Shown in pieces: positions 36,503 to 45,935 of a stretch of 54,793 nucleotides of DNA. The notes beneath the pieces were generated by a model. It had not been told where the DNA came from and made no database searches. It saw only the letters and a program-made list of their open reading frames with translations. Source of the stretch: Actinomycetes bacterium (GTDB lineage Bacteria > Planctomycetota > Phycisphaerae > JAACET01); contig JAUXAG010000015.1 of assembly GCA_030614915.1 (NCBI GenBank), forward strand, positions 1 to 54,793, written 5' to 3'. Numbering within the stretch: the first letter of the stretch is position 1; every line of letters starts with the position of its first letter. The translations under genes were made by a program, and so were the position numbers.

Positions 36503-37363
36503 ATGGTCGGCCATGAAATCGTCGAAAAGCAAGTTTTGGCCCCCGATGTGGTCAGCATCCGCCTGCGAGCCCCGCAAATTGCCCGGGTTCGCAAGCCAGG
36601 ACAGTTCATAATCTTACGTATATCCGAGGGCGGTGAACGCCTGCCGCTGACCATTGCCGATGCCGATCCTTCGGCAGGTACTATCCGCTTGATCGTTCAG
36701 GCGGTGGGTAAGACCACCGGCCAGCTTGCTTCGCTCGAACCGGGCCAAGCCATCCGGGATGTAGTCGGCCCCTTGGGCAGACCCACGCATCTGGACAGCT
36801 TCGGCCACGCAGTTTGCATCGGAGGCGGTGTCGGCACTGCCGTGGTCTATCCCATCGCCAAGGCCTTGGCTGAGTTGGGCAATAAGGTTACTGCCATAAT
36901 TGGCGGACGCACAAAGGATTACGTCTTACTCGAGCAGGAACTCAGCCGCTTCGCTCAGCGGGTCATCCCCACCACTGATGACGGTTCCTATGGCCAAAAG
37001 GGCTTTGTCACGGCCGCTTTGAAGGACGTTCTGGACAGCTCCCCCGAACCGCCCGTAAAGGCTATCTATGCCGTTGGGCCGGTCCCGATGATGAAGGCCG
37101 TCAGTGAGCTGACCAGGCCTTACGGCATTTACACCGTGGTCAGCCTTAATCCTATTATGGTCGACGGCACCGGAATGTGCGGCGGCTGCCGGGTCACCGT
37201 CGACGGCCAAACACGCTTCGCCTGCGTTGACGGCCCGGAATTTGACGGCCATCTGGTCGATTTTGACGAGCTGACCGACCGCCTTACCACCTACCGCCAG
37301 GCTGAGGCCCGAGCCGTGCAGCGATATGAAAACCATACGTGTAAATTGAAGGATGAGTCGTGA
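36503..37363 (+). CDS. nfnA: NfnA-type ferredoxin-NADP+ reductase subunit (SudB/PyrK family)
   Basis: FAD- and [2Fe-2S]-containing subunit, 286 residues. The FAD domain shows RVRKPGQFIILRISEGGERLPLTIAD. The NAD domain has CIGGGVGTAVVYPIAKAL, and the C-terminal iron-sulfur motif is GTGMCGGCRVTVDGQTRFACVDGPEFDGHLVDF. The frame is also open from a TTG at 36497, but the ATG at 36503 is better spaced from AAGG. It overlaps the following flavoprotein gene by 4 bases (GTGA). The pair could form an electron-bifurcating NfnAB transhydrogenase or supply reductant to glutamate synthase; the sequence alone does not decide. Confidence 0.88.
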   Translation: MVGHEIVEKQVLAPDVVSIRLRAPQIARVRKPGQFIILRISEGGERLPLTIADADPSAGTIRLIVQAVGKTTGQLASLEPGQAIRDVVGPLGRPTHLDSFGHAVCIGGGVGTAVVYPIAKALAELGNKVTAIIGGRTKDYVLLEQELSRFAQRVIPTTDDGSYGQKGFVTAALKDVLDSSPEPPVKAIYAVGPVPMMKAVSELTRPYGIYTVVSLNPIMVDGTGMCGGCRVTVDGQTRFACVDGPEFDGHLVDFDELTDRLTTYRQAEARAVQRYENHTCKLKDES

Positions 37364-38781
37364 GTTCAAATACCGGTCGTATGACCGCCAAGCAGCGCCT
37401 GGCCATCGAACGGCAGAAAATGCCCGAACGCTCGCCCGACGAGCGTGCCAAGGACTTCAACGAAGTCAATCTGGGTTTCACCGCCGAGTTGGCCAAACTC
37501 GAAGCCACCCGCTGTCTCCAGTGCAAAAAGCCTACGTGCATGGACGGTTGCCCCGTCGGTGTGGATATCAAGAAGTTCCTCGAGCTCGTCGAGGATGGCG
37601 ATTTTTTGGCTGCTGCCGCCCTCATGCGCCAAACCAATTCATTGCCCGCCTTGACCGGCAGAGTCTGCCCCCAGGAAATACAATGTGAAGCCGAGTGTGT
37701 CCGCGGCGTAAAAGGCGAACCCGTGGCTGTCGGTCATCTTGAGCGCTTTATTGCGGATTACGAGCGGGCCGCCAGTGAGCCCGTCAATGTCGAAGTTGCC
37801 CCGCCGACGAATAAGAAAGTAGCTATCGTAGGTTCCGGCCCGGCCGGCCTGACCGCCGCCGCCGATTTGGCCCGCATGGGACACGATCTTACAGTTTTCG
37901 AAGCCTTCCACGCCCCCGGGGGGGTCTTGGTCTACGGTATCCCTGAATTCCGTCTGCCAAAAAAAATCGTTGCTGCCGAGATCGAAAATCTCAAAAAGCT
38001 CGGCGTAAAGATAGAGCTCAATACCATCATTGGCCGCACCTATACCCTCGATGAGCTCTTCGAAAACGGTTTTAAGGCCATCTTCGTAGCCAACGGGGCC
38101 GGCCTGCCAGTCTTCTTGGGCGTCCCCGGCGAAAACCACAAAGGCGTCTATTCCGCCAACGAGTATCTCACCCGCGTCAATCTCATGGGCGCCTATAATT
38201 TTCCCAACTGCGACACCCCCATAATGCGTGGCCGGCAGGTCGCCGTAATGGGTGGCGGAAACGTAGCCATGGATTCCGTGCGCACCGCCAAACGCCTCGG
38301 TGCCGAGAAGGCCACGATCGTCTATCGCCGTTCGGAAAGGGAAATGCCCGCCCGCATCGAGGAGGTCCACCACGCTCGCGACGAGGGTATTATCTTTGAG
38401 ATGCTCACTAATCCGATTCGCATCCTCGGCGACGAAAACGGCTGGGTCTGTGGTATGGAATGCTTGCACATGGAACTGGGCGAGCCTGACGAGTCCGGCA
38501 GGCGCCGGCCCGTCCCCATCGAAGGCTCCAATTTCACCATGGACACCGACGTAGTAGTTGTTGCCGTCGGTGCCCGGGCCAATCCGCTGCTCTCCGGGGC
38601 CACCCCCGACCTCAAGATTAACAAGTGGGGCTACATCGAGGTCGACGAAAACCTCCAAACTTCGATACCCGGAGTCTTTGCCGGTGGAGACATCGTCCGC
38701 GGCTCAGCCACCGTAATCCTGGCCATGGGCGACGGCCGACAAGCCGCCCAGTCCATCGACAACTACCTCAAGGACGGCTGA
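37360..38781 (+). CDS. nfnB: NfnB-type/glutamate synthase small-subunit-like flavoprotein
   Basis: Protein of 473 residues with an N-terminal Fe-S domain (CLQCKKPTCMDGCPVGVDIKKF, then GRVCPQEIQCEAECVRG). An FAD-binding domain follows (VAIVGSGPAGLTAAADLARMGHDLTVFEAF), then GGVLVYGIPEFRLPK and an NAD(P)-binding domain (VAVMGGGNVAMDSVRTAKRLGAE). The C-terminal FAD motif is TSIPGVFAGGDIVRGSATVILAMGDGRQAA. The start is the GTG at 37360 inside the stop of the upstream gene. The tandem with the FAD/NAD subunit is the usual gene order. GltD would be an alternative name; no large glutamate synthase subunit is next to it. Confidence 0.92.
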   Translation: MSSNTGRMTAKQRLAIERQKMPERSPDERAKDFNEVNLGFTAELAKLEATRCLQCKKPTCMDGCPVGVDIKKFLELVEDGDFLAAAALMRQTNSLPALTGRVCPQEIQCEAECVRGVKGEPVAVGHLERFIADYERAASEPVNVEVAPPTNKKVAIVGSGPAGLTAAADLARMGHDLTVFEAFHAPGGVLVYGIPEFRLPKKIVAAEIENLKKLGVKIELNTIIGRTYTLDELFENGFKAIFVANGAGLPVFLGVPGENHKGVYSANEYLTRVNLMGAYNFPNCDTPIMRGRQVAVMGGGNVAMDSVRTAKRLGAEKATIVYRRSEREMPARIEEVHHARDEGIIFEMLTNPIRILGDENGWVCGMECLHMELGEPDESGRRRPVPIEGSNFTMDTDVVVVAVGARANPLLSGATPDLKINKWGYIEVDENLQTSIPGVFAGGDIVRGSATVILAMGDGRQAAQSIDNYLKDG

Positions 38782-38786
38782 CCGGG

Positions 38787-40652
38787 CTAGACTGCTTCCC
38801 GCGTCCGGCCTGACAGCAGAACCACGTCCCGCAATTGCTCCGGATTTGCAGCTTCCATCCACCGCTTCTCAAAGTCCGGCTCCTCAACGATATGGGCTAT
38901 GGCCATCAGGGCCCGCAGATGAAAATTCCTCTGATCCCGTGAGCCGATGAGCACGAACACCGTCCGCACCGGCTGATGCAGATCGGAGAATACAATCCCC
39001 GCCTTCGAGCGGATCATCAGCACCGCGAAGATGTTCTGGCCCTCCACCACGATGTGCGGAATCGCCAGGCCCGGCTGAATTACCGTGCTGGACTCTTTCT
39101 CGCGGGCCAGCAGCAGTTCGAACAGCTTATCTTCTGGCATCTCTATGTGCTCTGCCAGGGCCTTGGCCGCTCGGGCGAACATATCCTTAGCTCGGATCGA
39201 TTCGTCAATGTCCAGGATCGCGCAGTCCTGGATCAGTTTATCGAAGCGGTCTGTGCGAATACCCTCTCTCTCCAAAACGATTCTTTTCAACTCCTGCTCC
39301 AAACCCCCATCGCCCAGCTGCCGCGAGGTGATCCGGCGGACCAGGTAGATAAAGGCTGACTCCCGGCCGACTCGCACCTTCCCGTAAAGCAGATACCATC
39401 CTACCGCCAGGGCCCCAAAGCCCCCAGTGATCAGCAGCGGCACCGGACCCATCTCGATTATTAGAAAAACTATTAGAAAAACATAGGACACGATGGCACC
39501 GATCTGGATCCACGGATACAGCGGGCAGTGGAACACCGGCCTGTAGTTCTGCAGCTTGCTGGCCCGCATGATAATCACCGAGACGTTCACCAGCAGGAAC
39601 ATCAGGATCATCATCGTCGAGGCCGTCTTTACCAGGTTTTCGATCGATAGAAAGGCGATCACCACAATCATAAACCCGGTCGTAGCTATTATGGACACAT
39701 GGGGAGTGGAAAACCGCCGGTTCACCCTGCTGAAAAGACCGGGCAGAAGATCGTCTCGGCTCATGGCCATAGGCGAACGCGACGCGCTTAGAATCCCGGA
39801 ATTGGCCGTGGTGATAAAGGCCAGCATAGCCCCGGCCGCCAGGATAATCACCCCCGTGTTGCCCATGGCGACCTTGGCTCCCAGTGAAATGGGCGTCAAA
39901 GAATTCTGCAGCGATCCAGCCTCTACAACGCCAATGGTGACGAAGGTAACCAACAGGTAAACAATCTGCACCACCCCGAAGGCCAGAAACATCCCCAGCG
40001 GTATATTGCGCCCCGGATTCTTGATCTCCTCAGCCACGCTGGCCACCTTGGTTAGGCCCCCGTAGGATACGAAAACCAAAGCTGCGGTGGATAATACTGA
40101 GCCCAAGCCTTGGGGCATAAAATCGGCGAAGTGTTCGTGCTTCACCGCCGGCGCCGCCGAGACAATGTACAGCCCCAGCGTTCCCAGCAGGATCACAACC
40201 AGTAGTACCTGGATGCGGCCGGCATATCTGACACCTACCAAGTTCAAAATGCCAAACACCAGACAGCAAGTGATGGCGATGGCCTTGATCTCTATGTCTG
40301 AGGTTTCCGGGCGGATCAGCCTGGCAAAGGCCCCAATACCGATTAGGGCAAACGCGCTTTTCAGAGCGATGGAAAACCAGTTTGCCAGCCCCGCCATGGT
40401 GCCCGGCAAGGCTCCCAGACTCCGCTCGATGTAAAAATAGCTCCCTCCCGCCTTGGGCATTGCCGTGGCCAGTTCCGCCTTGCTGAGCATAGCCGGTATT
40501 ACCAGGACCCCTGCCAAAAGATAAGCCAGGATCATGACCGGACCTGCCTTGGTAAAGGCGATGCCCGGAAGTACGAACAGCCCGGAACTGATCATAGCGC
40601 CGGCCGCTATGCAGAAGACCCCCGCAAGACCAAGTTCCTTTTTCAAACCCAT
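38787..40652 (-). CDS. APC-family permease fused to a PTS EIIA-type domain
   Basis: Protein of 621 residues. Residues about 1-420 are an amino acid/polyamine/organocation permease with 12 hydrophobic segments (GLAGVFCIAAGAMISSGLFVLPG, the family GxG helix; ELATAMPKAGGSYFYIERSLG). Residues about 470-621 form a type-2 PTS EIIA domain (LAREKESSTVIQPGLAIPHIVVEGQNIFAVLMI), with the phosphorylatable His at about 533 in AIPH. The fusion suggests uptake controlled by phosphorylation (inference). No EIIBC partner is near. It is convergent to nfnB with only 5 bases between them. Confidence 0.9.
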   Translation of the reverse strand: MGLKKELGLAGVFCIAAGAMISSGLFVLPGIAFTKAGPVMILAYLLAGVLVIPAMLSKAELATAMPKAGGSYFYIERSLGALPGTMAGLANWFSIALKSAFALIGIGAFARLIRPETSDIEIKAIAITCCLVFGILNLVGVRYAGRIQVLLVVILLGTLGLYIVSAAPAVKHEHFADFMPQGLGSVLSTAALVFVSYGGLTKVASVAEEIKNPGRNIPLGMFLAFGVVQIVYLLVTFVTIGVVEAGSLQNSLTPISLGAKVAMGNTGVIILAAGAMLAFITTANSGILSASRSPMAMSRDDLLPGLFSRVNRRFSTPHVSIIATTGFMIVVIAFLSIENLVKTASTMMILMFLLVNVSVIIMRASKLQNYRPVFHCPLYPWIQIGAIVSYVFLIVFLIIEMGPVPLLITGGFGALAVGWYLLYGKVRVGRESAFIYLVRRITSRQLGDGGLEQELKRIVLEREGIRTDRFDKLIQDCAILDIDESIRAKDMFARAAKALAEHIEMPEDKLFELLLAREKESSTVIQPGLAIPHIVVEGQNIFAVLMIRSKAGIVFSDLHQPVRTVFVLIGSRDQRNFHLRALMAIAHIVEEPDFEKRWMEAANPEQLRDVVLLSGRTREAV

Positions 40653-40717
40653 TTGCTGCTTCCTCTGTGGCCTGGTTTACCCGCCAACTCGAAAGCACAA
40701 CTCATGCCACCTTCCAT

Positions 40718-41146
40718 CTAAGATGCCCGATCAGCCCCTCTGTCCAGCAGCCGCAACAAGCCCACCACCCACAGCAATCCCACGCAAAACAGACAGGCAG
40801 CTACATCGATCACCCAATCAACAGCACTCCAATCGCGACCTGGGACAAAGTTCTGCAGAAATTCATCCAGTCCTGCGTAAGCCGCGATCACACCGACCAG
40901 CAGCCACGTTTTCTTCGAAGTCAGATATACTCTGCGAAAAAGCCCGGCATTGACAAAGACCAATAACGCAAGGACGAAATACGCCCCCGCGTGCAGCCTT
41001 ATGCCGGATACATCCCAGCCTTTGGGCACGTACGGTTTTGGTATGTGGCTGGCGATAAAAATACCTACCCAATATACACACAAGATCACCAGGGCCAGCC
41101 TGGACTTACCTGTTTGCCGCACAGACCTCGGCTTACCCGGCTCCAT
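40718..41146 (-). CDS. VanZ-like membrane protein
   Basis: Membrane protein with about four hydrophobic segments (LALVILCVYWVGIFIASHIP, LHAGAYFVLALLVFVNAGLF, LLVGVIAAYAGLDEFLQ, VIDVAACLFCVGLLWVVGLL). The pattern P...H..AYF.L...Y....E..Q.F.PGR..S..D...N fits VanZ. In this family the conserved charges are H, E, R and D (DEFLQNFVPGRDWSAVDWVIDV). Earlier ATGs at 41164 and 41206 exist but overlap parA much more; the ATG at 41146 leaves a 14-base overlap. No strong ribosome site marks any of them. The function is unknown; VanZ was first named in glycopeptide resistance. Confidence 0.72.
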   Translation of the reverse strand: MEPGKPRSVRQTGKSRLALVILCVYWVGIFIASHIPKPYVPKGWDVSGIRLHAGAYFVLALLVFVNAGLFRRVYLTSKKTWLLVGVIAAYAGLDEFLQNFVPGRDWSAVDWVIDVAACLFCVGLLWVVGLLRLLDRGADRAS

Positions 41147-42176
41147 GTTGAGTACTGTCTTCATCAGTCGTGGATTCGTAGTTCTCGAAGGGGCCCGGGT
41201 GTTCACCTGGCCCAGTTGGGTTCACAGCTTCTGTGGCTGGAGTCGATTCGCTTTCGATGGATAGTTTACCCCCCTCCTGGGCCGGGTTTAACTCTGCTTC
41301 GACAGCCACAACCTCCGCCTCGTCTGCCTTAGCAGCCACCTTTGCCTCGCGTTTTTCCTCGGAGGGTTGCTCCTCTGTTGTCGCCCCCCGCCAAAAAGCC
41401 AGCATTTCTTCAGCCAGCGCCTTGTAGTCCTGGGCCCCGTGCGAGCTCTGTGAATACTCGAATATGGTTTTACCGTGCCCTGGCGCCTCTGCCAGCCTGA
41501 TATTTCTACGGATATAGGTCTTGAAGATGTGTGCCCCCTGCCACAGCGATTTTAGCGGATGCTCGCTCTTGAAAAACCTGCTTACCTCCGCAGCTACTTC
41601 CCCGCACAGGGCCGTACGCGAATCATACATACACAGCACCACCCCGCTGATACCCAACCGGGCGTTGATGCGGCGCTGAACCAGACTTACCGTCTCCAGT
41701 AGTTTGCCCAGTCCCTGCAGGGCCAGAAAGTGTGGCTGCAGAGCAATGAGTACTTCCTCCACGGCCGAAAGGGCGTTGATGGTCAACAGCCCCAGGCTCG
41801 GCGGACAGTCGATCAGCAGAACGTCGTAACGATCTCTAGCCGGGTCTAGAGCGTCTCGCAGCAATATCTCTCGACCTACCACGCCGACCAGTTCAATTTC
41901 CGCCCCGGCCAGGTCGATCTCCGCCGGCACCAGAACCATATTCGGCCGGACCGTTCGCACACATTCTTCCAGGCTTACCGACCCGCCCAGAAGTTCATAT
42001 ACGCTTGGTTTGACCTCACCCGGTTCCAGACCAAGGTGCATGGTCAAGTGCGCTTGCGGATCCAGATCCACCAGGCACACTCGCTGCCCTGCCTGGCTCA
42101 GAGCTGCTCCAAGGTTAACACCCGTAGTAGTCTTGCCGACCCCCCCTTTTTGATTGGTAATCGCGATGCTGTGCAA
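41133..42176 (-). CDS. parA: ParA/Soj-type ATPase with acidic C-terminal tail
   Basis: Partitioning-type ATPase. Walker A KGGVGKTTTGVNLG, Walker A' VDLDPQAHLTMHLG, Walker B DVLLIDCPPSLGLLTINAL, and GHGKTIFEYS near the end of the core. Residues after about 270 form a Glu/Ala-rich tail unlike Soj. The TTG at 42176 is preferred to that at 42182: GGAG lies 7 bases before it and the start then reads HSIAITNQKGG. No parB is adjacent. A strong promoter (42210-42238) precedes it. A histone-like gene lies upstream. Confidence 0.88.
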   Translation of the reverse strand: MHSIAITNQKGGVGKTTTGVNLGAALSQAGQRVCLVDLDPQAHLTMHLGLEPGEVKPSVYELLGGSVSLEECVRTVRPNMVLVPAEIDLAGAEIELVGVVGREILLRDALDPARDRYDVLLIDCPPSLGLLTINALSAVEEVLIALQPHFLALQGLGKLLETVSLVQRRINARLGISGVVLCMYDSRTALCGEVAAEVSRFFKSEHPLKSLWQGAHIFKTYIRRNIRLAEAPGHGKTIFEYSQSSHGAQDYKALAEEMLAFWRGATTEEQPSEEKREAKVAAKADEAEVVAVEAELNPAQEGGKLSIESESTPATEAVNPTGPGEHPGPFENYESTTDEDSTQHGAG

Positions 42177-42209
42177 GGCCAAGCTCCGCTTGGGCTAAAT
42201 CCCCGCTTG

Positions 42210-42238
42210 ATTATAGGCTCCCCCACCGGCCAACACAA
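42210..42238 (-). promoter_or_regulatory. Promoter of parA
   Basis: On the minus strand TTGTGT (42233-42238), a 17-base spacer and a perfect TATAAT (42210-42215), about 34 bases before the parA TTG. Confidence 0.7.
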
Positions 42239-42420
42239 GCCCTTACCCGCATCGCAACCCCACGCCCCAGACAGGCCTCTGTTTCACCTCTCGGCTTATC
42301 CCCAACTCCCGGCAGCCTTTACAGCCTCCTCCCCTCCCGCTTCGCCGTCCTCTCTCTTTACCGCCCGCCCGACTAACCCTCCAGCCCTTTTACCTGCCCC
42401 TCTATCCAACCCCGGGGCGC

Positions 42421-42461
42421 AAAAAAACGGAAGGTTTCGCCGTGGCCTAAAACCTCCCGTT
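42421..42461 (-). terminator. Terminator of the lysine-rich protein gene
   Basis: AACGGGAGGTTT (42450-42461) pairs with AAACCTTCCGTT (12 bp with one G-T pair) across a 12-base loop, followed by seven Ts (42421-42427). It lies about 95 bases after the stop of the histone-like gene and before parA. Confidence 0.88.
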
Positions 42462-42555
42462 ATACAACTCGCAATGCCGCTTGTGTTTTGCCGTGGCGGC
42501 AATGTGTTGTTCCCGATCCGTCGGGAACTCGCTCGCTTACCCGCGAGCTCAGATA

Positions 42556-42714
42556 CTACCTACGTTTTCTCTTCCTGGCTTTTTTCCTCTTGGCTGTTTT
42601 CTTTTTAGCTTTTCTTTTGGCTTTTCTTTTGGCTTTTCTTTTGGCTTTCTTCTTGGTTTTCTTCTTGGCTGCTTTCCGTTTCGCTTTCTTCTTGGCTTTT
42701 CTTCTCTTCGCCAT
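42556..42714 (-). CDS. Lysine/arginine-rich histone H1-like small protein
   Basis: A 52-residue reading frame. Composition is almost only Lys, Arg and Ala, with repeats of the type AKRK and KKKT; it begins MAKRRKAKKKAKRKAAKKKT and ends KKARKRKRR. The repeat KAKR is encoded by three exact 12-base units (42609-42644). It resembles the tails of bacterial H1/HC2 histone-like proteins, which bind and compact DNA. It is real by its signals: AAAGGAGGTGA lies 8 bases before the ATG, the promoter is near consensus, and a strong terminator follows. The function as a nucleoid protein is inferred from composition. Confidence 0.85.
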   Translation of the reverse strand: MAKRRKAKKKAKRKAAKKKTKKKAKRKAKRKAKRKAKKKTAKRKKARKRKRR

Positions 42715-42742
42715 TACACATCACCTCCTTTCTTAATTGTGA

Positions 42743-42771
42743 ATGCTAGGGACGAAAAAAAAGCCTGTCAA
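42743..42771 (-). promoter_or_regulatory. Promoter of the lysine-rich protein gene
   Basis: TTGACA (42766-42771), 17-base spacer, TAGCAT (42743-42748) on the minus strand, followed by a short leader and a full Shine-Dalgarno sequence. A and T tracts flank the -35 (42755-42802) and could act as an UP element. Confidence 0.75.
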
Positions 42772-42838
42772 ACCTTTTTTTCAAAAAACTTAACTTTTTT
42801 TTCGCCCTTTTTGGGCGTCAAATACCACTTGCACCCGC

Positions 42839-42854
42839 ATAACAGTACTGTTAT
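42839..42854. promoter_or_regulatory. Perfect 16-bp palindrome (operator candidate)
   Basis: ATAACAGTACTGTTAT reads the same on both strands. It lies about 70 bases upstream of the -35 of the histone-like gene and between that gene and the sigma-PheS gene. A CGCCC-TTTTT-GGGCG hairpin (42803-42817) lies between it and the promoter. A regulator site for either gene is possible; nothing identifies the protein. Confidence 0.4.
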
Positions 42855-43141
42855 CGTCATTCCACCGTGAAAATCTTTATCTTTTAATGCTCATATAACT
42901 TGCTTGTTCCGCTGCCTCGCGGCTCAACATTTTCTCCGGATTTATGTACCACAGCCTGATTACGCTTTGCTCCGATTCGCGATTACGGTCTTGTGTATTC
43001 TTATTATCTCTACTAATTTGAGCCGCTTCATCCGCGACGGCCCTGATCGATATGCACTGACGTCCTCTGCCTCACTCTCAGATAGAGCTTAAAAAAATCA
43101 CTCGACCCGGTATCCTCATCTGCTGATTCTGGCTCATTAAG
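42855..43141. other. Upstream region of the sigma-PheS gene
   Basis: With the stretch from 42715 on, this makes a 427-base gap without a gene. Between 42855 and 43141 I found no convincing promoter for the plus-strand sigma gene: TTGTGT-17-TAATTT near 42989 is weak. The sequence is AT-rich in its first part. Nothing RNA-like was recognised. Confidence 0.4.
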
Positions 43142-44440
43142 ATGGAGGCACCGTCGATTGGAGTTACTGTGGAAGAACTCAAACACCTGCTGACTACAGC
43201 AGCCGACCCCGGCGCTCCCTTGGCCAAGAGGCTGGGGGCCTTCGGCAAGATCGTCCTGCGTTTTCGGGACATGGCCTATGGCTGTGCCTATGCCCTGCTG
43301 GGGGACTTCCACCTGGCCGAAGACGCTGCCCAGGAGGCCTTCCTCACCGCCTATCGCCAGCTACCCCAGCTCCGCCGGCCCCAGGCCTTCCCCGGCTGGT
43401 TTCGCCGGATCGTCATCAGCCAATGCCGCCGGATCACCCGCCGTAAGAGCCTTCCCACTACTGGCCTGGACGCCGCAGCCGCTCTGCCCTCGACTGCTCC
43501 CCAGCCGCCCCAGAACCTCGAAAGGCGCGAAACCAAAGACAAGGTCCTGGCCGCCATCGCTGCCCTGCCCGGACATCAGCGGATGGCCACCACCCTTTTC
43601 TACATCAACGGCTACTCCCAGAAGGACGTCGCCGAGTTCCTCGAAGTCCCCCTGACCACCGTCAAAAAACGACTCGCCGATTCCCGCGCCAGGCTCAAAG
43701 AAAGGATGATTGCCATGGTTGAAGAAACACTGCACAACAACGCTCCCGATGAACGCTTCAGCAAGAGAGTCATAGAAGAATTGGTGAACAGGCCAAAGCC
43801 TCTGGAAATCGAAGGCCATCCAATACGCAAAGTCCTGGATTCTATCCGAGCCGCGCTGCCAGAGTACCAGTTCATCGAAGGTGAGGAGATTGTCTCCAGG
43901 TCAGCCTTTCTTGAATTCGCAGAGACCCTCGACGCTGTATATCACGATGAGAATAGGGTTCTGCGTCGTGGACTTACTCTCACCTTGCTCCGGGCCGCAG
44001 CCGGGAAAGTCCTGCCCATCCGAATCCTCACAGCAGGCCGCGTCTTTCGTCCTGGCAACAAGCGCGAGGACGCCATTCATCTGCGAGCTTATCACCAACT
44101 TAACTTGCTCTGTATCGAAGCTGGTGCAGACCTCGACTGTATGAAAAGTACCCTTCGCAAGGTCCTTGAGGCAGTCCTTGGCCCGGTGGAACTCAGGTGG
44201 AACGATGATGACTTTGCCTACTTCGAACAAGCCAAGATGGTGACAATTAGCTACAAGGATGACTGGATGGATATCGCTGGTAGCGGCATGCTAGCCCGTG
44301 AATCTCTCAAGAAAGCCGGTTATGATCTGGACACAATCACGGGCTATACGTTTGGCCTAGGGCTGGACCGCCTGGCCATGCTCAAATACGGCATCGACAA
44401 TATCCGCAAGCTCTGGCAGCCGCCTTACGTGCCGGCGTGA
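43142..44440 (+). CDS. ECF-type sigma factor fused to a PheS-like class II aminoacyl-tRNA synthetase domain
   Basis: Single continuous frame of 432 residues. Residues ~35-105 are sigma-70 region 2 (LRFRDMAYGCAYALLGDFHLAEDAAQEAFLTAYRQLP, GWFRRIVISQCRRITRR). Residues ~132-190 are region 4 (LAAIAALPGHQRMATTLFYINGYSQKDVAEFLEVPLTTVKKRLADSRARLKE). From ~222 to the end it follows PheS: GHPIRKVLDSIRAALPEYQFIEGEEI, PIRILTAGRVFRPGNKREDAIHLRAYHQL (motif 2, residues 292-320), WMDIAGSGML, and motif 3 GYTFGLGLDRLAMLKYGIDNIR (residues 401-422). The PheS Glu after HQ is Asn, and the THTS phenylalanine-pocket segment is replaced (LRRGLTLTLLRAA). The sigma part probably binds RNA polymerase; the synthetase-like part may sense an amino acid, adenylate or tRNA (inference). 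The ATG at 43142 has only a weak ribosome site. Confidence 0.88.
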   Translation: MEAPSIGVTVEELKHLLTTAADPGAPLAKRLGAFGKIVLRFRDMAYGCAYALLGDFHLAEDAAQEAFLTAYRQLPQLRRPQAFPGWFRRIVISQCRRITRRKSLPTTGLDAAAALPSTAPQPPQNLERRETKDKVLAAIAALPGHQRMATTLFYINGYSQKDVAEFLEVPLTTVKKRLADSRARLKERMIAMVEETLHNNAPDERFSKRVIEELVNRPKPLEIEGHPIRKVLDSIRAALPEYQFIEGEEIVSRSAFLEFAETLDAVYHDENRVLRRGLTLTLLRAAAGKVLPIRILTAGRVFRPGNKREDAIHLRAYHQLNLLCIEAGADLDCMKSTLRKVLEAVLGPVELRWNDDDFAYFEQAKMVTISYKDDWMDIAGSGMLARESLKKAGYDLDTITGYTFGLGLDRLAMLKYGIDNIRKLWQPPYVPA

Positions 44441-44732
44441 CTTGCCCCCTTATTGCCTTGGCGATTACTTGTACTCCCTGAAGCACATGCCGGGCTTGTT
44501 GCCATAATCTATGCAGACCTCGCGTCCACCAGCCTGGATACTCATCCTGCTGGCCTCGATTATCGGTCCTGTCCTGGGCAGAAGCCTCGGCCACCAGAAA
44601 TTCTTCACCATCCGCAATAAACTCTCTCCTGTCAACTTATTCTGCCCCTCTCCTCAGCCGATAATCACTATTAGCCTAGGAAATGCTCCGGGACCACCCG
44701 CCCCTACCCCACGGCTGGAAGGATTCTGCAAA

Positions 44733-45935
44733 ATGAACGAGGACATCAAGACGTGCATCTATTCGGAAAATACCAATGATGATTACGGCTCGGCCCTGCG
44801 AACCAGCCTGGTCCGCCATCCAGCTATTCACATCCTCACTGAGGTCCACGACCAGCAAGGCCTTATCGACTGCCTCGAGAGACTGCCTGTAACCCTCCTG
44901 GTCCTGGACCTGGATCCCAAACCATCTTCCGCCCTGGCGGTTATGGAGGATGCCTCTGCCCGTTTTCCTTCTTTGGCCATCGTTGCCCTGTCCGACAACG
45001 CCGACCCGAAGTTGATCCTCTCGGCCATGCGCGCCGGCTGTCGCCAGTTCATTACCAAGCCCATTGATCAGGACGACCTTGCCCGGGCCCTCAAGCCCTT
45101 GACTCGCGCAGCCTCCGGCTGGGCAAAGACCGAAAGGCTCATTTGTCTGCTCGGTTCTTCCGGCGGCTGTGGAGTAACCACCATTTGCGCCAACTTGGCC
45201 ATTGAGCTTGCTCAGTTGGCCGCCGAGCCCTGCGCCTTGGTCGATTTACAATTGGAGTTTGGCTCTGTCGCCACCTTTTTTGATTTACACCCCACCCACA
45301 CCATTGCCGACCTGACCAACGCACCCAACGAGATTGATGCTCGGATTACCGAACAGGCCCTGACCATCTTGCCTTCTAAGGTGGCTGTCTTAGCTCGGCC
45401 CCAACGGATCGAACAGGTCGCCCAAATCGATCCTGAACGCATTGCTCAGATACTCAAAATCCTGACCCATGCCCATGATGCTGTGGTTGTTGACACCCCT
45501 CGCCGTTTCGACCGGGTTGGAATTACCGCTTTGGAGATGGCCAACTCTGTCCTGCTGGTCCTGCAGTTGTCGGTGCCCAGCATTCGCAATGCTCAGCGGC
45601 TTTACAAAGGCCTCATCCAATACGGAATGCCCCCCGAGAAAATCCACCCTGTAGTCAACAGATTCACCCGCAATAGCCCCATTTCGCCCCAGGATGTGGA
45701 GCAACACCTAAATACCAGCGTGTTTGCCGTTATCCCCAACGACTACCAGACCGTCCAGGCTGCCCTGGACTTTGGTAGGCCTCTCCTGAGTGATTCGCCT
45801 GATTCGCCCGTCCGCAAGGCCATTGCCAAGATGGCCGTCCGGATATATCGAGGTGATTTCACCGCTGTCAAGTCAAAATCCAAACGCAAGGCCGGGCTCT
45901 TCAACCGCTGGCTTGGCAGTGGCGACAAACATTGA
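44733..45935 (+). CDS. Second TadZ/CpaE-like protein
   Basis: Protein of 400 residues with a receiver-like N-terminal domain (LLVLDLDPKPSSALAVMEDA; AMRAGCRQFITKPIDQDDLARAL). A MinD/ParA-type ATPase domain with unusual Walker A follows (LLGSSGGCGVTTICANLAIEL; CALVDLQLEFGSVATFFDL; VVDTPRRFDRVGITALEMANSVLLVLQ). It closely resembles the TadZ at 21249-22649. A longer frame starts at 44511, but the ATG at 44733 gives a start at the receiver-like domain and has GGAAGGA about 10 bases upstream; the 74-residue extension has no family character. It follows the sigma-PheS gene by about 290 bases. No other tad genes are next to it, except the FHA-GspE gene at 49716. Confidence 0.85.
   Translation: MNEDIKTCIYSENTNDDYGSALRTSLVRHPAIHILTEVHDQQGLIDCLERLPVTLLVLDLDPKPSSALAVMEDASARFPSLAIVALSDNADPKLILSAMRAGCRQFITKPIDQDDLARALKPLTRAASGWAKTERLICLLGSSGGCGVTTICANLAIELAQLAAEPCALVDLQLEFGSVATFFDLHPTHTIADLTNAPNEIDARITEQALTILPSKVAVLARPQRIEQVAQIDPERIAQILKILTHAHDAVVVDTPRRFDRVGITALEMANSVLLVLQLSVPSIRNAQRLYKGLIQYGMPPEKIHPVVNRFTRNSPISPQDVEQHLNTSVFAVIPNDYQTVQAALDFGRPLLSDSPDSPVRKAIAKMAVRIYRGDFTAVKSKSKRKAGLFNRWLGSGDKH

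Follow-up and report, generated by a model that had tools for sequence, protein, structure and literature searches.

In eukaryotes, the kinase GCN2 contains a domain derived from HisRS that binds uncharged tRNA. HisZ, a HisRS paralogue and regulatory subunit, is another class II synthetase relative that acts as a regulator, in this case responding to an amino acid (PMC9437257). Among ECF sigma factors, at least 26 groups are described that carry N- or C-terminal extensions (PMC8999054).

We analyzed a stretch of 54,793 nucleotides (the window; assembly GCA_030614915.1, contig JAUXAG010000015.1, a member of the Phycisphaerae), in which an ECF sigma factor is fused to a PheS-like synthetase core. 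The gene is a single open frame on the + strand, running uninterrupted from an ATG at 43142 to a stop at 44438-44440, with the following features:

43142..44440, + strand: whole fusion gene, 432 aa plus stop (open frame, Pfam, full-length homologous fusions)
43253..43447, + strand: sigma-70 region 2, residues 38-102 (Pfam PF04542 Sigma70_r2, E 7e-11; helical in the model)
43538..43696, + strand: sigma-70 region 4, residues 133-185 (Pfam PF08281 Sigma70_r4_2, E 5e-11)
43727..43774, + strand: junction linker, residues 196-211, TLHNNAPDERFSKRVI (pLDDT <50 at residues 197-204)
43775..44437, + strand: PheS-like class II synthetase module, residues 212-432, EELVNRPKPLEIEGHPIR to LWQPPYVPA

The N-terminal part belongs to the ECF sigma factors: regions 2 and 4 score above the Pfam cut-offs, region 3 is absent, and the protein reaches 70 bits against TIGR02937 (cut-off 42.9). 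The C-terminal part matched the Pfam family tRNA-synt_2d (PF01409) at residues 187-427 with 117 bits (E 9e-34, cut-off 19.8), and its best NCBIfam model was bacterial pheS, TIGR00468 (residues 270-426, E 5e-30, 105 bits). The nearest solved structures by sequence were also PheS chains. An initial annotation, made from the letters of the window, had read this frame as sigma regions 2 and 4 joined to a PheS-like core with motif 2 and motif 3. The open frame, Pfam and NCBIfam all agree with that reading, and both motifs were found (AGRVFR and GLGLDRL, respectively). We conclude that the fusion is real.

AlphaFold2, run on the window protein with a 30-row alignment, returned a model with a mean pLDDT of 87.6 and a pTM of 0.60, in which the sigma part is helical, the linker is poorly defined at residues 197-204 and the C-terminal part forms a complete alpha/beta class II domain; the orientation of the sigma part relative to the module was predicted without confidence. 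In a Foldseek comparison with the PDB, PheS chains ranked first (E. coli 3pco_A, 213 columns, 2.4 A, TM 0.73 by target length). The predicted structure (pLDDT 88 when rounded) is therefore a confident class II fold related to PheS, in line with the initial annotation. Its description of the core as nearly full needs some qualification: motifs 1-3 and the fold are present, but most of the PheS stretch NFDALNxPxxHPARDxxDTFY, which precedes the LRTHTS motif, has been deleted, and there is no N-terminal coiled coil, the sigma domain standing in its place. The module is derived from PheS yet is not a PheS itself, its score lying far under the TIGR00468 equivalog cut-off of 237 bits. With a folded extra domain C-terminal to region 4 in one chain, the protein is an ECF factor with a C-terminal extension.

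Genome searches, plus one scan of named genomes, located the same arrangement in nine other genomes of the Planctomycetota and Armatimonadota, as seven complete frames and two that are cut by contig ends. Complete single-frame fusions are present in the Planctomycetota MAG CSMAG_1807 (L010/L040), the Phycisphaerae MAG Lab288P3bin214 (L011/L041), a genome from another class (L046, G655), Armatimonadetes UBA5829 (L042) and G605 (L053), as well as in a more divergent pair, L019 (G085) and L061 (G670). The contig end cuts the frame inside sigma region 4 in L012 (G017) and in the linker in L017 (G218), where the sigma part was not seen. The in-frame fusion thus spans at least seven families and two phyla. 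Among 397 genomes of the class, five modules matched with E <1e-50 over the full length, and the rest of the matches listed scored as canonical PheS does (E 1e-27 or weaker) and nearly all covered the catalytic part only; divergent modules score under this gap in E-value. All full-length modules found are joined to a sigma factor or run off a contig end.

The initial annotation had allowed that an assembly error near position 43740 might have joined two genes, or that relatives might hold no similar fusion. Since independent genomes carry the same fusion, we rejected an assembly or frame error, and the seven complete and two truncated frames dispose of the second objection. No shared gene neighbors and no adjacent anti-sigma gene were seen among the fusions when these were inspected by eye, a result in keeping with a self-contained regulator.

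The host has a PheS of its own (L005, G000:C35:30323-31138), which belongs to the archaeal/eukaryotic type (PRK04172, 552 bits) and is adjoined by a PheT-like gene, so translation does not depend on the module. Bacterial PheS is matched better by the module than this archaeal-type enzyme is; therefore, it is not derived from the host enzyme and is unlikely to pair with the host beta subunit. A recent duplication of the host PheS was likewise rejected, given the type of the host enzyme and the separate clade that the modules form (see below). The other class members whose PheS we examined (L028-L031) have the shorter bacterial type, unlike L005.

Around the gene, the upstream alignment with the congener G002 revealed by eye no clear ECF-type autoregulatory promoter element. 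Low-complexity repeats occupy 42481-42870 (FLLAFFLAF on the + strand, a Lys/Glu/Gln/Ser-rich repeat frame on the - strand) and are present in G002 too. By eye, the product of the downstream gene (44511-45935) is a response-regulator/ParA-type ATPase similar to the pilus protein CpaE. An amino-acid permease-like gene with a C-terminal PTS EIIA-like stretch (38787-40652, by eye) lies upstream, a few genes from the sigma gene, and is conserved in G002.

For the function of the module, we examined which residues of PheS are kept. In T. thermophilus PheRS, Ser180, Gln218 and Glu220 are the residues that hold the alpha-amino group, and Arg204 (motif 2) and Arg321 (motif 3) those that hold ATP. The corresponding positions in the window protein are:

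43976..43978, + strand: Thr279, equivalent of PheS Ser180 (T. thermophilus numbering); Ser or Thr in 10/10 modules
44048..44050, + strand: Arg303, motif 2 arginine; in 9/10 modules
44096..44104, + strand: Gln319-Leu320-Asn321, equivalents of Gln218 to Glu220; Gln in 9/10 and acid in 9/10 modules, Asn in the window copy
44213..44221, + strand: Phe358-Ala359-Tyr360, equivalent of the FPF phenylalanine pocket; variable among modules
44348..44350, + strand: Thr403, at the position of Ala314 (E. coli Ala294), which sets side-chain specificity; the modules have T,A,G,V,A,A,H,G,G,G
44369..44371, + strand: Arg410, motif 3 arginine; in 8/10 modules, replaced by Asn in L010 and L046

We compared ten modules over 105 columns that show little or no variation among five canonical PheS, and a column was retained on average in 4.0 of the 10 modules. 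Retention at the key positions was far above this mean (Ser/Thr180 10/10, Arg204 9/10, Gln218 9/10, Glu220 9/10, Arg321 8/10), an enrichment that is not blind, as these residues were chosen from prior knowledge of PheS. The modules have lost His178 (0/10) and Phe260 (1/10), the Trp149 segment is deleted, and the Ala314 position is variable. In most of them the C-terminus reads LWxPPYV or a near-variant, a signature missing from PheS. The pattern of kept and lost residues is as expected for a scaffold that binds amino acids and has changed its specificity.

The same residues could also belong to a working enzyme, such as a ligase that activates amino acids and, tethered to the sigma factor, acts on RNA polymerase, tRNA or another acceptor. 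Both catalytic arginines and the amino-group residues are mostly retained, and there is a ligase family related to PheS whose function is unknown (the NF051887 SrmL model). However, L010 has lost both class II arginines and L046 that of motif 3, and both have retained the fold family and the fusion, which speaks against catalysis as the conserved function. In addition, the protein lacks a beta subunit and the tRNA-binding coiled coil, and many of the other modules in this sigma family are non-enzymes. We consider an enzymatic role improbable.

The module might instead sense uncharged tRNA or the translation state, in the manner of the GCN2 HisRS-like domain; its origin in a tRNA synthetase and its retained class II core would agree with this. 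PheRS recognizes tRNA mainly through the N-terminal coiled coil of the alpha subunit and through the beta subunit, but both are missing here, and the motif 2 loop of the module has diverged. Of the readings weighed here, we regard tRNA sensing as the least probable. The initial annotation had offered an amino acid, an adenylate or tRNA as the signal. The first two fit the retained residues, although in the window copy an Asn replaces the acidic residue by which PheS contacts the amino group, a point against the ligand reading; tRNA fits poorly, as the parts of PheRS that grip it are absent. With contacts to the amino group and the nucleotide kept and those parts gone, the ligand is more likely to be an amino acid or a relative than tRNA.

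Therefore, we propose, with slightly better than even confidence, that the fusion is a one-component ECF sigma factor whose PheS-derived domain senses a small ligand. Sigma regions 2 and 4 would select the promoters, as in the rest of the family. The diverged PheS core would bind the ligand, most likely an amino acid, an aminoacyl-adenylate or a similar amine-bearing metabolite. Binding would then act through the flexible linker and toggle the sigma domains between states able and unable to engage RNA polymerase or the promoter. Of this picture, the fusion with its recurrence, fold and residue pattern is observed; that a ligand binds, what it is, in which direction it controls the sigma factor and which genes respond are inferred. 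The initial annotation is partly supported: its architecture, its PheS assignment and its broader suggestion of a synthetase-derived domain regulating a sigma factor hold up, and the fusion does recur.

What was not visible to the initial annotation is that the C-terminus is exchangeable and has been swapped at the same locus in a sister species:

43726..44465, + strand: exchanged cassette, without DNA homology to the orthologous locus of the congener G002, both flanks being homologous

In G002, which belongs to the same genus, the locus is conserved at the DNA level over 36799-42887 (85-90%), 43092-43725 (83%) and 44466-44670 (78%), and 43726-44465 has no counterpart. The G002 sigma factor is 78% identical to that of the window, and its gene runs into a tail of equal length ending in a Rho RNA-binding domain (a single-sequence structure model of this protein had a pLDDT of 35). 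Residual similarity (FSKRV/FSQRV) places the junction directly after the linker motif. In a second congener, G001, the corresponding locus falls in an assembly gap. A chimeric contig is unlikely, because it would need two joins exactly at the cassette ends, in frame and with a complete domain. The C-terminus is an exchangeable cassette on a retained sigma chassis. No insertion-diagnostic repeats were found adjoining the cassette, the module had no match in viral contigs, and the best plasmid matches were weak (26-29% identity), the annotated ones being ordinary pheS; a phage or plasmid origin was rejected on these grounds.

The C-termini of the relatives of the sigma factor are of many other kinds: ATP synthase alpha/beta, T2SSF (three times), T2SSE, phosphotransferase, bifunctional nuclease plus TPR, BNR/sialidase-like, HEAT, ankyrin, another sigma factor (FliA-like) and some matching no identified domain (the tails of L054, L057, L058 and L064 were assigned by eye). 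The linker pattern [LA]PxxFxxxV also occurs in relatives with other modules. In L020 (526-2181, - strand), the ATP synthase alpha/beta nucleotide-binding domain has a degenerate-looking P-loop (MQGVGRIVL) and is possibly another sensor derived from a housekeeping enzyme. One module, T2SSF (type II secretion protein F-like), recurs on sigma relatives in three genomes (L033, L056, L062), and in L021 (805-2331, - strand) the ECF sigma factor is followed in one frame by a complete FliA-like sigma factor (regions 2, 3 and 4). L013, L014 and L037, the closest to the window sigma after G002, have a tail of ~450 aa with only a faint GNAT match, and L018 and L058, from different families, have in common a tail of ~380 aa with a faint Peptidase_C10-like match in one of them.

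In a module tree, the ten PheS-like modules group together, apart from six canonical PheS (100/99). In the tree of the sigma parts, in which many inner branches are weakly supported, the PheS-bearing sigmas are scattered, with six changes in the core set and seven in the wider set; an AU test rejected a single clade of PheS-bearing sigmas (P = 4e-8) and did not reject the pair L010+L046 (P = 0.12). Taken together, the PheS-like modules share one origin and have been joined to different sigma chassis.

Such variety of tails could also arise by neutral read-through, if the tail is of no consequence to the sigma factor, pieces of unrelated genes being added and replaced without function. The sharp change in GC3 at the junction, from 75% to 61% in the window and from 73% to 55% in G002, would agree with this. 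The PheS-like modules, however, form one clade with fixed borders, an LWxPPYV tail in most members and selective retention of residues in very distant genomes, and random tails would neither recur nor stay open for ~230 codons. This explanation is already disfavored, and we consider it very improbable.

The main rival to ligand sensing is a role in protein contacts, in which the module is an interaction or decoy domain that mimics PheS and responds to proteins that partner or attack PheS. Integrated decoys of this sort act in plant immunity. It is the main rival because the sister modules come from many unrelated proteins and include repeats (HEAT, ankyrin, TPR) and domains of housekeeping origin (PheS, ATP synthase alpha/beta, Rho, T2SSE, T2SSF); several of them (HEAT, ankyrin, TPR, T2SSF) look protein-interacting rather than ligand-binding, so the common logic may be protein contact. 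A swap at one locus within a genus is also typical of components under changing selection, and the extensions of ECF42 and ECF57 are thought to act by protein contacts (PMC8999054). Against this, the selectively kept residues are the ligand-binding ones, a bacterial-type module would be a poor mimic of the archaeal-type host PheS, and the window protein has no match to a defense family. We judge a protein-contact or decoy role unlikely.

Under the ligand-sensing reading, the replacement module of G002 and the other modules on relatives fit interchangeable inputs to one output, and one type of genetic switch seems to have been given different built-in inputs. We tentatively propose, at somewhat less than even confidence, a plug-in architecture in Planctomycetota and relatives: one ECF chassis with a standard junction after region 4 ([LA]PxxFxxxV), at which unrelated domains, many of them of housekeeping origin (PheS, Rho, ATP synthase, secretion proteins), would be swapped as cassettes and provide new inputs for the same promoter output. 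The PheS module would be a mobile plug whose pocket diversifies for different ligands. If the module senses an amino acid or a related metabolite, it would link translation chemistry directly to transcription initiation in a single protein. The cassette swap at one locus is a natural experiment on how sigma factors gain new signals, and it might supply parts for sigma factors that are controlled by ligands and work without an anti-sigma factor.

Compared with known systems, the module shares with bacterial PheS (TIGR00468; PDB 3pco) the fold, motifs 1-3 and most of the amino-group and ATP residues. It differs in its score (105 bits against the 237-bit equivalog cut-off), in the missing coiled coil and largely deleted segment before LRTHTS, in the loss of the phenylalanine pocket (FPF, Ala314), and in that the modules have another C-terminal tail, are fused to sigma factors and in some cases lack a catalytic arginine. 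The PheS-related ligase SrmL (NF051887, E 8e-24) is likewise derived from PheS and stands outside translation, but the window protein reaches only 84 bits of a cut-off of 300 and has a sigma factor attached. The HisRS-like domain of GCN2 is also a synthetase-derived domain within a regulatory protein, whereas the window protein lacks the tRNA-binding parts of PheRS. HisZ resembles the module in its working only, as a non-translating class II synthetase relative that responds to an amino acid (PMC9437257); it is a separate, HisRS-derived enzyme subunit, while the window domain has its best matches in PheS and is covalently joined to a transcription initiation factor.

The literature that we searched held no sigma-PheS fusion and no synthetase-type ECF extension; an earlier listing is possible in the ECF reclassification (PMC7826278) or in planctomycete surveys (PMC3497475, PMC7286433), which lay outside that search. 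The closest architecture is that of the ECF factors with regulatory C-terminal extensions, in which the chain continues beyond sigma regions 2 and 4 into a cytoplasmic domain believed to replace the anti-sigma factor, and the window module sits directly after region 4 as it does there (PMC8999054). The extensions of ECF41, ECF42, ECF57 and ECF238 are SnoaL-like, TPR, WD40 and cysteine-rich, respectively, and the window protein has no such Pfam match and by its extension falls in none of these groups; a class II tRNA-synthetase core is not among the extensions described there. ECF factors with regulatory extensions are thus already known, and the most novel part of the present system is that unrelated, housekeeping-derived modules are exchanged at one junction within one sigma family, even at one locus in sister species.
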